Positions 36,672 through 52,022 of a stretch of DNA of 64,000 nt are shown here, in pieces. Within the stretch, counting starts at the first letter, position 1, and each line of letters begins with the position of its first letter. Made by a program: the position numbers and the translations under genes. The stretch is taken from the NCBI RefSeq assembly GCF_000237805.1, contig NZ_CM001376.1:1168349-1232348 (forward strand), read 5' to 3'. A model generated the notes under the pieces. The model saw only the letters and a program-made list of their open reading frames with translations. It was not told where the DNA came from and did no database searches. Source of the DNA: Jonquetella anthropi DSM 22815 (GTDB taxonomy: Bacteria; Synergistota; Synergistia; Synergistales; Dethiosulfovibrionaceae).

Positions 36672-36735
36672 ATCTAATATTCATAATAGAGAAAAAACTA
36701 TTTACTTTTTTGAAACCGATTAAAAAAGGGGAATC

Positions 36736-37087
36736 CAGTGGTCCATAAGCCGGGTTCTGTCGTGGGAAGTCATTTCTCTAGGAGCCGATTTGCACCGGCC
36801 CTCAAGCGACCATACCCGGAGGTCAGCGGGCAGCCTCAACCCTCCCTATTTGATCTTGCTCCAGACGGGGTTTGCCTAGCACGTTCGTCGCCGAACGCCC
36901 GGTGGGCTCTTACCCCACCCTTTCACCCTTACCGCTGCGGGGACCGCAGGCGGCGGTCTGCTCTCTGTGGCACTATCCTGTGGATCGCTCCAACTGGACG
37001 TTATCCAGCGTCTTGCCCTGTGGAGCCCGGACTTTCCTCTCCCCTGCCCGGCAAAGCCCGGCAGGGCGGCGACTTCCTGTACCGCTG
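36736..37087 (-). ncRNA. rnpB: RNase P RNA, bacterial type A
   Basis: Catalytic RNA of RNase P, which matures tRNA 5' ends. The minus strand has the universal 5' segment GAGGAAAGTCCGGGCTCC (about 37045-37024) and the 3' segment ACAGAACCCGGCTTA (about 36762-36748). These two form the P4 core. P1 can be drawn from CAGCGGTACA (37087-37078) with TGGACCACTG (36745-36736), two mismatches. Length about 352 nt fits. All frames called across this region are spurious. Ends are accurate to a few nucleotides. Confidence 0.95.
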
Positions 37088-37101
37088 AATTCCCGTCCGT
37101 C

Positions 37102-48805: not shown

Positions 48806-49434
48806 TCCAGCCCCGCCAACAGATCCGGCAGTTCGACGACGGAAGAAAGCACGTGCCGAGCCCCGGCCTTCTGCAAATCGGCGGCCGAGTGGTTGCCAGT
48901 CGTGACGCCGATGGGCATGCACCCGGCGTTCGCCGCCGCGATCATGTCGATGTCTGTGTCGCCCACGTAGGCCGAGCTCTGGGGATCGACGCCCAAAAGC
49001 CGAAAGGCCTCCGAGATGATGGCCCCTGACGGCTTGGACGGCAGCGTCCTGATTCCCACGATCACCGAGCAGACGGCACCCACGCCGGAAGCGTTGACGA
49101 CGTCGTCGGGCGACAGGCGGTTTGTGGCCACCGCCACGCCGATTCCGCGGCTCTTTAGGGTTTTGAGCGTCTCAATGACGCCCGGCAGAGGAACGACGCC
49201 TTGGTAGTGCTGGGCGGCAAAGATCTCCCGATACCGTTCGACCCAACCGTCGCCCAAACGCCCCCAGAACCCGGCCATGGCGTCTTTGAGAGAATAGCCG
49301 ATCGTCGCCTTCACCTCGTCGAGCGACGGCTTTCTCAGCCCCAGTTCGTCCGCCAAGGCGCAGATGGTCGCCCAAATGCCTTGACTGCTGTCCACCAGCG
49401 TCAAATCAAAATCAAAGGCCACAGCCTCAATCAC
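48802..49434 (-). CDS. HAD-superfamily phosphatase, Gph-like
   Basis: A 210-residue haloacid dehalogenase-fold hydrolase. Motif I DFDLTLVDS is near residues 8-16, VATNRLSPDD (motif II region) near 108-117, and motif IV YVGDTDIDMIAA near 161-172. It resembles phosphoglycolate phosphatase and pyrophosphatase-type HADs. Start chosen at GTG 49434 behind AAAGGGTG; the longer frame to 49491 has no RBS. It is followed, with 4-nt overlap, by the YyaL-like gene. Confidence 0.85.
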   Translation of the reverse strand: MIEAVAFDFDLTLVDSSQGIWATICALADELGLRKPSLDEVKATIGYSLKDAMAGFWGRLGDGWVERYREIFAAQHYQGVVPLPGVIETLKTLKSRGIGVAVATNRLSPDDVVNASGVGAVCSVIVGIRTLPSKPSGAIISEAFRLLGVDPQSSAYVGDTDIDMIAAANAGCMPIGVTTGNHSAADLQKAGARHVLSSVVELPDLLAGLE

Positions 49435-49517
49435 GCCAACACACCCTTTCACAATCAAAGAAGCGGCTTCGCTTTTGGAATTATACCCCACATCTCACGT
49501 ACTTTTTGTCCTCAGCA

Positions 49518-49546
49518 TTGACAAGTTGAGGGAACCAGAGTACCTT
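49518..49546 (+). promoter_or_regulatory. Promoter of the cobalamin-riboswitch transcript
   Basis: Perfect TTGACA (49518-49523), 17-bp spacer, TACCTT (49541-49546, weak). It would start transcription near 49553, just before the aptamer. Confidence 0.5.
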
Positions 49547-49559
49547 AACACAGTAATGT

Positions 49560-49710
49560 TAAACGTCTTGAGGAGCGGGGAATCCGGTTTGAATCCGGAG
49601 CGGAGCCGCCACTGTGAACCTGACGACGGGATAAAAGCCACGGCAGTCACCTGCCCGGAAGGCGTCCCGCCGGTTGAAGGAAGCCAGGATACCCACCACA
49701 AGATGAGACA
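49560..49710 (+). ncRNA. Cobalamin (B12) riboswitch aptamer
   Basis: Matches the Cbl aptamer core in order: GGGGAATCCGGTTTGAATCC (49577-49596), GCCGCCACTGTGA (49605-49617) and the B12-box segment AGCCAGGATACC (49682-49693). A closing P1 can be formed by GTCTTG (49565-49570) with CAAGAT (49699-49704). Ligand-bound aptamer normally turns expression off. The downstream gene is a single small membrane protein. Confidence 0.93.
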
Positions 49711-49781
49711 CACGACCGCCCGCGGGATTTCGGGAGTCCGGTGACAGGCCGCTGTAAAGCGGTCAGTTATTCGTGTTCCGC

Positions 49782-49812
49782 GGGAAGAGCTGAGGCTCTT
49801 CCCTCTTTTTTT
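49782..49812 (+). terminator. Riboswitch expression platform: intrinsic terminator
   Basis: Perfect 8-bp stem GGGAAGAG/CTCTTCCC with 6-nt loop then TCTTTTTTT, located between the aptamer and the ATG at 49845. It indicates control by premature termination. A CCGCGGGA sequence at 49779-49786, including the first terminator bases, has a near copy (CCGCGGGA in CGCCCGCGGGAT at about 49718-49728) that may form an antiterminator. Confidence 0.85.
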
Positions 49813-49844
49813 GGGACACGACAAATTCAAAGGGGGTTTCCTAA

Positions 49845-50168
49845 ATGTCGTTGGTGAACGTGTTGGAGACGGTTATGTTGATCTGTTTTGGCTGCGCCTG
49901 GCCCCTGTCCATTTACAAGAGCTGGACGTCCCGAACGGTCGGCGGCAAGAGCCTGATGTTCCTCATCGTCATCCTTGTGGGTTACGCGGCTGGCATTTCC
50001 AAGTGTCTGATGGATCCGGCCGGGTACAGCGTCGCCGTCTTGACCATGTACGCGGTGAACATCATCATGGTGACCATTGACCTCGTCCTGTTCTTCCGCA
50101 ACCGCCGGTTCGACCAGAAACGGCTCGCCGTCGCCGAAGAGCTTTTCGACGAAACTGACAACCTTTGA
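49845..50168 (+). CDS. PQ-loop/SemiSWEET-like small membrane protein under B12 control
   Basis: A 107-residue protein with three hydrophobic helices (about residues 4-26, 33-54, 62-85). It carries a PQ-loop-type motif CAWPLSIYKSWTSRTVGGKS in the first helix/loop, where the Pro-Gln is Pro-Leu. Size and three-helix layout match SemiSWEETs, which dimerise to form a small-molecule pore; PnuC vitamin transporters share the same fold. The C-terminus is charged (RRFDQKRLAVAEELFDETD). It is the sole gene downstream of a cobalamin riboswitch/terminator, so transport of cobalamin-related material is inferred. RBS AGGGGG at 49831; its own terminator follows. Confidence 0.8.
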   Translation: MSLVNVLETVMLICFGCAWPLSIYKSWTSRTVGGKSLMFLIVILVGYAAGISKCLMDPAGYSVAVLTMYAVNIIMVTIDLVLFFRNRRFDQKRLAVAEELFDETDNL

Positions 50169-50271
50169 GAACTTCGGAGCGTCCGCGCTCCGGTTCAACC
50201 TTTGAATTCTTCCGCTCCGGTTCCCCCCTAAGAAATCGACGCGTTCACGCATTGCGGAAGATTCATGCTCC

Positions 50272-50316
50272 AGCGCAGGCCGTTCCCTTCAGCAAGGAAC
50301 GGCCTGCGCTTTTTCT
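50272..50316 (+). terminator. Terminator of the PQ-loop gene transcript
   Basis: 15-bp perfect stem AGCGCAGGCCGTTCC/GGAACGGCCTGCGCT with T run. The 103-bp stretch before it (50169-50271) shows only a GGAGCG/CGCTCC hairpin. Confidence 0.92.
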
Positions 50317-50320
50317 CACG

Positions 50321-50362
50321 AAAAATCAGCGACCTGCCTTGAATAGGCAGGCCGCTGATTCG
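50321..50362 (-). terminator. Terminator of the first C69 dipeptidase gene
   Basis: Stem AATCAGCG/CGCTGATT plus CCTGCC/GGCAGG, with T run on the minus strand; 22 bp after the stop. Confidence 0.85.
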
Positions 50363-50384
50363 TTTTTGTGGATCGTGCGTCCCG

Positions 50385-52022
50385 TTACTTGCCGGGCCTC
50401 CACGTCGAGCCGAACCCGACTTCCCGCAGGTAGTCGATCGGGTAGCCCAAGTTCTCTTGGCTCACGCCTTCGGTGACTTTCATGCCGCTGTGATACTGGC
50501 CGACCAGCTGCCAGCAGAGAGCCCACCACCGGCGCGACAGGTCGCTCAGACAGGTCGAGCTGTAGCCGGTAAGGAACGTCCGCGCCGACTCAACGCTCGT
50601 CTCCGCAATTTCGGCCGCCAGACGCTCTAGGCCGGGCTGAGCGTCAAAGTACGACTGCTCGAGCTTCTGCCGAGCCTCAGTGATCTCCTTAAACATCGCA
50701 TCCCACCGCAGGCACGCCCAGTTGCGGGCGAACTCAAACGCCCACCACGCGCTGTTCGGGTCAAACCGGTCTCTTGCGCCCCGGGACCACTCCTCCGGCA
50801 GGGATGTGGCGCCGCAGTAAATCGGCGCGTAGACGGTCGTGTCCGTCGCCCCAAGGCCCAGCCACAGGAGGGCCTTCAGCGGCTCGGGCAGCCAAGCCCG
50901 GCACTGAGCCACGAAACTGTACGAACAGCGGAAAATCGAAATCGGTCGCTCCCAATCGAGGCCTTTCAGGTCGTCGGGCAGGGCCTTCTGCTCCACCGTC
51001 CAACGGCTCGGGTTGCCAAACGGCCCGGCGGCCGGACCTTTGGTTAGGTCGTAGGGCGTCCCTTCCATGTGGTCCCCGTAGAGCTTCATCAGGTCCTGAA
51101 CCGTCAGCTTAGCATCCGGCTTGACGAAAATAGGATAGGCAACCGCGTCGTTTTGTACCGGCCAGTTGCCCGACGGGCTGAGAATGCTCATCGCTCTCCA
51201 CTCCCGCCGAGCCGAGTAGGCCTTCGGGCTGTCGGCCGGCCGGGGATCAAATGTCTTCGCAAAGCTGAACGGCTCTCTGCCGTCCCACCAGCCCTTTTCT
51301 TTCGCGTAGTCGGTCAGTCCGGAAGACGTCATGACGTTGGAGCTGTCGGAGAAGTCCACCGCGCCGATCCGCGCCCGGTTCGCGCCGACGAAGTACGCGT
51401 CGTCGGGCATCCGAACGGCCACCCAGTGAGCGCCGCTTCTGCCGCTTTCCGGCGTCCAGTCTGCGCCAGGCCCGGCGATCTCAAAAATCCAGACTTCCTG
51501 TCCGTCGCCGACGATCAGCCCTTCGCCGATGTCCCGGTACCCCCACCGCTCGGCCAGCTCGCCCATGACCTTGACGGCTTCCCGGGCCGTGCTGGCCCGC
51601 TGAAGGCCCAGCGCCTGCAGGTTGGCGATGTGCATCATTCCGGCCTTGCAGACCGCGTTCTCCCGGCCCACCCACGTGTGCTCGCCGATGACGACGCCCT
51701 TTTCGTTCATGAACGGGTACCCGACGTGAAAATATCCCCACGTCCGCTTGGCCTGAGGAATTTCTCCGAACTTCTCGTACGGCACCCCGGGCCGGGTTTG
51801 AATGCACGGGTCTCCCCAAATTTCCGTCGTCTGACCGGCCTCGAACCGACCGCCGGGGACGAACTTAACCCTGTGGTCGTACCACCCGTCAACCGAATGG
51901 CTGACGAGAACCGAACCGTCAGCCGTCGCCGCCCTTCCTACTCCGAACGACGTGCACGCCTCAGCCCTCCGGGCAAACAGAAGGGCAAGTCCCGCGACAA
52001 CCGCCAACGCACAGAAAACCAT
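50385..52022 (-). CDS. Secreted C69-family dipeptidase (PepD-like), copy 1
   Basis: A 545-residue Ntn-hydrolase of peptidase family C69. A hydrophobic signal segment (FCALAVVAGLALLFARRAEA) is followed directly by CTSFGVGRAATADGSVLVSH. The cysteine after the signal would be the N-terminal nucleophile once the leader is removed. Conserved blocks: HVGYPFMNEKGVVIGEHTW, LQRASTAREAVKVMGEL and GPFGNPSRW. Start chosen at ATG 52022 behind GAAAGGTGTG; the frame to 52097 has no signal-like start. A close paralogue lies immediately upstream in transcription order, each with its own terminator. Confidence 0.93.
   Translation of the reverse strand: MVFCALAVVAGLALLFARRAEACTSFGVGRAATADGSVLVSHSVDGWYDHRVKFVPGGRFEAGQTTEIWGDPCIQTRPGVPYEKFGEIPQAKRTWGYFHVGYPFMNEKGVVIGEHTWVGRENAVCKAGMMHIANLQALGLQRASTAREAVKVMGELAERWGYRDIGEGLIVGDGQEVWIFEIAGPGADWTPESGRSGAHWVAVRMPDDAYFVGANRARIGAVDFSDSSNVMTSSGLTDYAKEKGWWDGREPFSFAKTFDPRPADSPKAYSARREWRAMSILSPSGNWPVQNDAVAYPIFVKPDAKLTVQDLMKLYGDHMEGTPYDLTKGPAAGPFGNPSRWTVEQKALPDDLKGLDWERPISIFRCSYSFVAQCRAWLPEPLKALLWLGLGATDTTVYAPIYCGATSLPEEWSRGARDRFDPNSAWWAFEFARNWACLRWDAMFKEITEARQKLEQSYFDAQPGLERLAAEIAETSVESARTFLTGYSSTCLSDLSRRWWALCWQLVGQYHSGMKVTEGVSQENLGYPIDYLREVGFGSTWRPGK

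Follow-up and report, generated by a model that had tools for sequence, protein, structure and literature searches.

What is a cobalamin (Cbl) riboswitch doing in front of a single gene for a very small membrane protein? The question is raised by a locus in a genome (G000) of the genus g1, presumably Jonquetella, that lies within the 64,000-nucleotide stretch of DNA analyzed here, which is called the window throughout. An earlier note, made from the letters of this DNA, had described a complete B12 aptamer, an intrinsic terminator as its expression platform, and a lone small gene of 107 residues with a terminator of its own, and all three were borne out. The covariance-model search with RF00174 covered the full length of the model (E 9.6e-14 over the window) with a score well above the gathering score, a terminator stem was located between the aptamer and the open reading frame (ORF), and a second, more stable terminator was located behind the ORF (Table 1). 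The start codon of the mini gene is 130 nt 3' of the aptamer. Because the aptamer, terminator, ribosome-binding site, ORF, and second terminator follow one another in this order, the locus is a one-gene unit behind a Cbl riboswitch. A B12-sensing switch before a lone gene for a mini membrane protein is thus confirmed as a genuine feature of the sequence. Two other features of the window were recorded: on the minus strand, a pair of adjoining genes for peptidases of family C69 (50385–53824) and a bacterial class A RNase P RNA (36731–37088, 293.8 bits).

Table 1. Features of the riboswitch unit, in positions of the window
Feature	Position	Strand	Remarks
Cobalamin riboswitch aptamer	49554–49714	+	RF00174, 64.8 bits (gathering score 31.5)
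Candidate P13-like hairpin, CCCG/CGGG	49719–49734	+	putative role
Candidate antiterminator, 3' strand	49776–49784	+	shares its final three bases with the terminator stem
Intrinsic terminator and U-tract	49782–49812 (stem 49782–49803)	+	9 pairs, then TCTTTTTTT
Ribosome-binding site, AGGGGG	49831–49836	+	read by eye, 8 nt upstream of the ORF
Mini gene ORF	49845–50168	+	107 codons; three-helix membrane protein, WP replacing PQ
Terminator 3' of the mini gene	about 50272–50314	+	-31.4 kcal/mol, z -7.1

How such a switch might operate was considered from the folding of the leader. The stem of the first terminator has a folding energy of -16.7 kcal/mol compared with -10.2 kcal/mol for shuffled sequences (z -2.5), and 2 of 200 shuffles were equally good. 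A pattern scan of both strands from 49300 to 50500 found six terminator-like sites where 2.1 were expected, so the terminator pattern by itself is weak evidence. The 5' part of the P13-like hairpin (49719–49727) is able to pair instead with the candidate antiterminator strand, and when the upstream stretch was shuffled 1000 times, 15 of the shuffles gave an equally good pairing with this arm. The fold with the full terminator was calculated at -44.3 kcal/mol and that with the full antiterminator at -42.9 kcal/mol. In the best fold of the leader, a shortened antiterminator helix sits next to the full terminator, as only three bases are shared, and the two candidate structures are therefore not strictly exclusive. 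Sixteen leaders of the family were tried in the antiterminator test and 14 were scored, the terminator rule having missed two, including that of the window. Among those scored, one pairing was strong (equaled in 1 of 300 shuffles) and two were moderate (21 of 300). The riboswitch L216 of genus g2 (G001:C2:233439-233602), which precedes an aconitase gene, has a candidate antiterminator of that strong kind (1 of 300 shuffles).

Most identified Cbl riboswitches are repressing, according to PMC11575231, and it is from this class membership that we infer an off polarity for the window switch. If corrinoid is plentiful, the bound aptamer would favor the terminator stem at 49782–49803 and the mini gene would be off; if corrinoid is scarce, pairing of 49719–49727 with 49776–49784 would weaken the terminator and the mini protein would be made. 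It is improbable, in our estimate, that cobalamin instead turns the switch on, in a way that would match the B12-dependent propionate metabolism of its regulon neighbors. Such a polarity would suit the Cbl riboswitches of the order that precede genes for the B12-dependent methylmalonyl-CoA mutase, where repression seems odd, and it could draw on the L5-like loop, which has two six-base complements downstream (G-U pairs allowed), one of them being GGCUCU at 49794, within the terminator loop and 3' arm. The prevalence of repression among identified Cbl riboswitches (PMC11575231) and the alternative pairing in the leader, which suits an off switch, both argue against it.

The protein behind the switch has three hydrophobic segments, with hydropathy centers at residues 9–18, 36–50, and 66–79, and its first loop contains three Lys or Arg residues and no Asp or Glu. 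It shares these three segments, the positive first loop, and a length of about 100 residues with the SemiSWEET and PQ-loop half-transporters (PF04193 and NF037968), to which members of the mini family also show weak sequence matches. A PQ-loop-type motif had been read in the protein, but the aligned site is W19-P20 in the window copy and contains no PQ motif. P20 is constant in all 56 rows of alignment A2, which consists of the window copy and 55 of the 80 family loci described below. As the family was collected from a genome collection with the sole pattern M[LIV][IV]CF[GA][AML]AW, the conservation of M11, C14, F15, A18, and W19 in A2 is partly an artifact of a scan that demanded those residues.

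Profile searches placed the family near these half-transporters at varying distance. With the window copy as query, hmmscan against Pfam gave no PQ-loop match and one match far under the cut-off, which we have taken for chance; no PQ-loop or SemiSWEET profile matched this copy above the cut-off, and the NCBIfam and PDB-sequence searches returned zero matches. Among the 56 family members, 29 matched the Pfam PQ-loop family at E values of up to 0.1 (best 9.3e-5), and when ten members were scanned singly, three had PQ-loop matches, one of them above the cut-off (22.3 versus 22 bits). The best PDB sequence match of the family profile was 4x5m (E 0.029), an entry titled uncharacterized protein that we take to be the E. 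coli SemiSWEET. A profile-profile comparison (hhalign) of the family with SemiSWEET_2, for which the comparison set was 21 proteins of another phylum drawn from 22 loci, was weak, with a probability of 5%, and the NCBIfam SemiSWEET_2 model matched in none of 149 genomes of the phylum. The description of a SemiSWEET-like mini membrane protein was supported, with the three segments, the size, and the weak matches of its kin in its favor; the lack of a PQ-loop profile match for the window copy, the WP in place of PQ, and the low hhalign probability are differences from the known half-transporters. We regard the mini protein as SemiSWEET-like but divergent, from a family on the margin of the PQ-loop/SemiSWEET group, and by analogy it may also work in a SemiSWEET-like manner.

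If the association of this family with B12 were general, its genes should repeatedly be found behind Cbl riboswitches, as the earlier note had expected of the homologs. Homologs of the mini protein were found in 39 of the 101 genomes of the relatives set, with the genome of the window counted. In the scan of the genome collection, 253 of 263 pattern matches were confirmed as relatives, a figure that is an undercount because a single search pattern was used; the best 80 were retained, and their records come from many phyla. A further 41 pattern matches were on viral contigs, and none of these was confirmed as a relative. The riboswitch scan at ±1.5 kb took in 30 of the 39 homolog loci and found RF00174 at one of them, namely that of the window itself. 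Of the best 80 loci, L058 of Pyramidobacter sp. C12-8 was the one with RF00174 within up to 5 kb, in a scan in which some loci had less than 1 kb upstream and were thus covered in part, and in which some genomes were shared with the relatives set. L058 is the same locus as that of genome G002, and the genus g3 is Pyramidobacter. In g2, which we take to be Dethiosulfovibrio, the mini gene was near an RF00174 match in none of the six genomes that carry it. The expected regularity was thus mostly missing, with four of the six g3 genomes, described below, as the exception.

Clustering of the neighborhoods of the 80 loci identified no gene family near more than 10 of them and no recurrent partner beyond close kin, as the largest sets of neighbors were either at scattered positions or from close kin. 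The mini gene is near gpsA- and rpoD-like genes (by eye) at three g2 loci, and a thioredoxin-domain gene is near it in g2 as well as in the window, but in a different orientation. Two genomes, G091 and G093, encode the mini protein with no RF00174 match (under stricter filters, among the matches listed) and with no match for methylmalonyl-CoA mutase. The possibility that the mini protein depends on the mutase was considered and rejected, since both of these genomes carry the protein without the mutase. Among the genomes examined, the link to B12 is lineage-specific and is found only in a small anaerobic group.

The genome of the window, a single contig of 1,675,934 bases, contains four RF00174 matches (94, 88.9, 64.8, and 33 bits), and the aptamer studied here scores below two of the other three. 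One of these others precedes a cbiK-like gene followed by B12-synthesis-like genes, and another precedes a btuF-like gene followed by ABC-transporter genes (both genes named by eye), and we read these as B12 synthesis and B12 uptake units, each with its own riboswitch. The third (L001/L055, G000:C1:18506-18668) precedes a gene whose product has the Pfam domain set of an ADP-forming acyl-CoA synthetase. PMC3766115 sorts the targets of Cbl riboswitches into four groups: synthesis of B12, transport of B12 and its precursors, transport of cobalt, and isozymes for enzymes that depend on B12. In its full-model aptamer and its terminator-type platform beside a gene the window unit resembles the cobalamin riboswitches of RF00174; its target, unlike theirs, is outside these four groups unless it is a precursor transporter. 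In the literature searched, outside of which most subscription papers lie, no co-mention was found of a cobalamin riboswitch with a PQ-loop protein, of SemiSWEET with a riboswitch, or of a cobalamin riboswitch with acetyl-CoA hydrolase.

The function first proposed for the mini protein was the dedicated transport of a B12 precursor, a lower-ligand base, or a corrinoid, under repression when B12 is plentiful. The gene is directly 3' of a Cbl riboswitch, and Cbl riboswitches often control transporters of B12 or its precursors (PMC3766115), as this proposal would require. The relatives of the protein in many phyla argue against it, since an aptamer was nearby at one of the best 80 loci (some with short flanks), and so do G091 and G093, which keep the mini gene with neither RF00174 nor the mutase matched, and the separate switching of what we read as the uptake and synthesis units of G000. 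The proposal was therefore not supported, and we regard it as very doubtful.

Elsewhere in the order, of the 29 genomes with a match for the small-subunit type of methylmalonyl-CoA mutase, at least 23 have a Cbl riboswitch about 250–375 nt before it, based on a hand comparison of positions among the matches listed. Examples are L209-L212, L155-L158, G082:C7:42351, and G040:C37:34997. The small-subunit type was defined as the weaker near-full-length mutase match of each genome (416–489 bits), and the split genes of G047 and G084 were excluded. The small-subunit gene has no riboswitch in G000 and G009, and four cases were left undecided (G065, G077, G086, and G100). A B12 riboswitch on an enzyme that needs B12 is unexpected if it is an off switch. 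The link between the mutase and the riboswitch may well be in print already; PMC11575231, PMC9600662, and PMC2667541 are among the papers that mention both a Cbl or B12 riboswitch and the mutase.

The exception among the mini-gene loci is g3. In G002, G004, G006, and G008, the riboswitch is followed on one strand by a gene for an acetyl-CoA hydrolase/transferase, identified from the Pfam domains of the G004 copy, and then by the mini gene, so that the Cbl riboswitch is about 1.66 kb upstream of the latter. In the three g3 loci checked, the mini protein start (MFLK) is 4 nt 3' of the transferase stop. In the remaining two g3 genomes (G010 and G012, drafts 82–83% complete), the mini gene is at another site, next to genes that look by eye like the LysR type, and the contigs in question have no RF00174 match. 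The transferase is also present in four of the seven g2 genomes, and a riboswitch is immediately before each of the four. With start codons picked by eye, the transferase starts 128, 129, 130, and 138 nt 3' of the aptamer in these g2 genomes and 143–145 nt 3' of it in the four g3 genomes. The units of both genera therefore resemble the window in having a Cbl aptamer, a terminator with its closing T-run some 100 nt past the aptamer (91–97 nt in the window), and a start codon 128–145 nt past it, and in g3 the next gene after the transferase is the mini gene itself. They differ from the window in the transferase, for which G000 has no match, and the genes neighboring the mini gene in the window had no matches at the g3 loci.

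Two g2 genomes retain the riboswitch without the gene. In G007, what is left is the leader as far as the start codon (97% identical to that of G003) and the final 100 nt of the transferase; in G005, it is the leader as far as 18 nt short of the start codon (97% identical to that of G011) and the final 21 nt. Behind these orphaned riboswitches (L213 in G007 and L217 in G005), the next good ORF is 339 and 367 nt from the aptamer, respectively. These remnants show that, in this bacterial family, a transferase gene has been lost while its riboswitch survived.

Trees were calculated for the aptamer, from 38 of the 57 listed riboswitches and again from a reduced set of 31 after seven long or odd rows were dropped, and for the protein, with long-branch warnings on the trees of both. 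The window aptamer has its highest similarity to the aptamer ahead of the G009 transferase (159 columns, 69% identity), and it groups with the transferase riboswitches of g2 (92/94 in the full tree and 92/91 in the reduced tree, not starred). This group also includes a cbiM-type riboswitch, L218, and in the full tree the nearest partner of the window row is a cbiK-type riboswitch, L230 (90/54). Constraint tests rejected neither a placement of the window aptamer with the g2 transferase group (p 0.44) nor one with the transferase riboswitches of g3 (p 0.26). The window copy in the protein tree joins g3 with a low support of 38/34; its placement with only the four riboswitch-linked g3 copies was rejected (p 0.02) because two unlinked g3 copies nest among the four linked ones. 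On these tree results, capture of a copied riboswitch at a site of its own and in-place loss of the transferase are equally plausible. A separate observation is that the closest kin of L218 (G009:C15:69455-69619), which precedes a cbiM-like gene, is the riboswitch of the CoA transferase in that genome (96/88), a kinship that suggests that riboswitches can be copied between loci.

Descent of the window switch from a transferase unit is favored because of the 130-nt spacing to the start codon, the kinship of the aptamer, and the documented losses of the transferase. Our preferred explanation, on which we would place an even bet, is that a terminator-type Cbl riboswitch from a CoA-transferase unit now controls a lone SemiSWEET-like half-transporter and that corrinoid turns the gene off. 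The riboswitch would have been taken over from such a unit or left behind by it. A more modest account, which we consider possible but rather unlikely, is that of a near-neutral capture, in which the riboswitch lost its transferase and the mini gene merely happens to be behind it, under a B12 control that has no present function. The two g2 genomes with orphaned riboswitches and distant next ORFs are precedents for such a state, and the relatively low score of the window aptamer within its genome would be in keeping with it. Against near-neutral capture, the aptamer match is full-length and the terminator intact, and the riboswitch and the mini gene also share an operon in four of the six g3 genomes, an association that would not be expected twice by chance unless it was inherited.

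Returning to control of the half-transporter by a switch of transferase origin, we infer that origin, the dimeric transport (by way of the fold family), and the nature of the cargo. The mini protein would, by analogy, probably form a homodimer that passes a small metabolite across the inner membrane. A fermentation acid or a related metabolite would be a likelier cargo than a B12 precursor, because switches of this kind precede genes for acyl-CoA and carboxylate enzymes across this bacterial family. The more specific reading that the SemiSWEET-like half-transporter is a B12-controlled carrier of short fermentation acids is a long shot. If it were true, corrinoid supply, acting through one kind of riboswitch, would govern three things in this bacterial family: the mutase, an acyl-CoA enzyme (the CoA transferase or the acyl-CoA synthetase), and the membrane step for their substrates or products. 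The protein would then be a bacterial analog, in kind, of the mitochondrial pyruvate carrier and other small carboxylate carriers.

The arrangement in the window has the look of a fermentation-enzyme switch that was rewired locally, and not that of a system devoted to B12 transport. With it, a family of mini-transporter-like proteins that is widespread but has no name joins the possible targets of B12 riboswitches. The arrangement also points to a larger pattern in the order, in which B12 riboswitches are found on acyl-CoA and carboxylate metabolism, the B12-dependent mutase included. The orphaned riboswitches of the family illustrate that a regulatory RNA can outlive its own gene and may come to control a new one.
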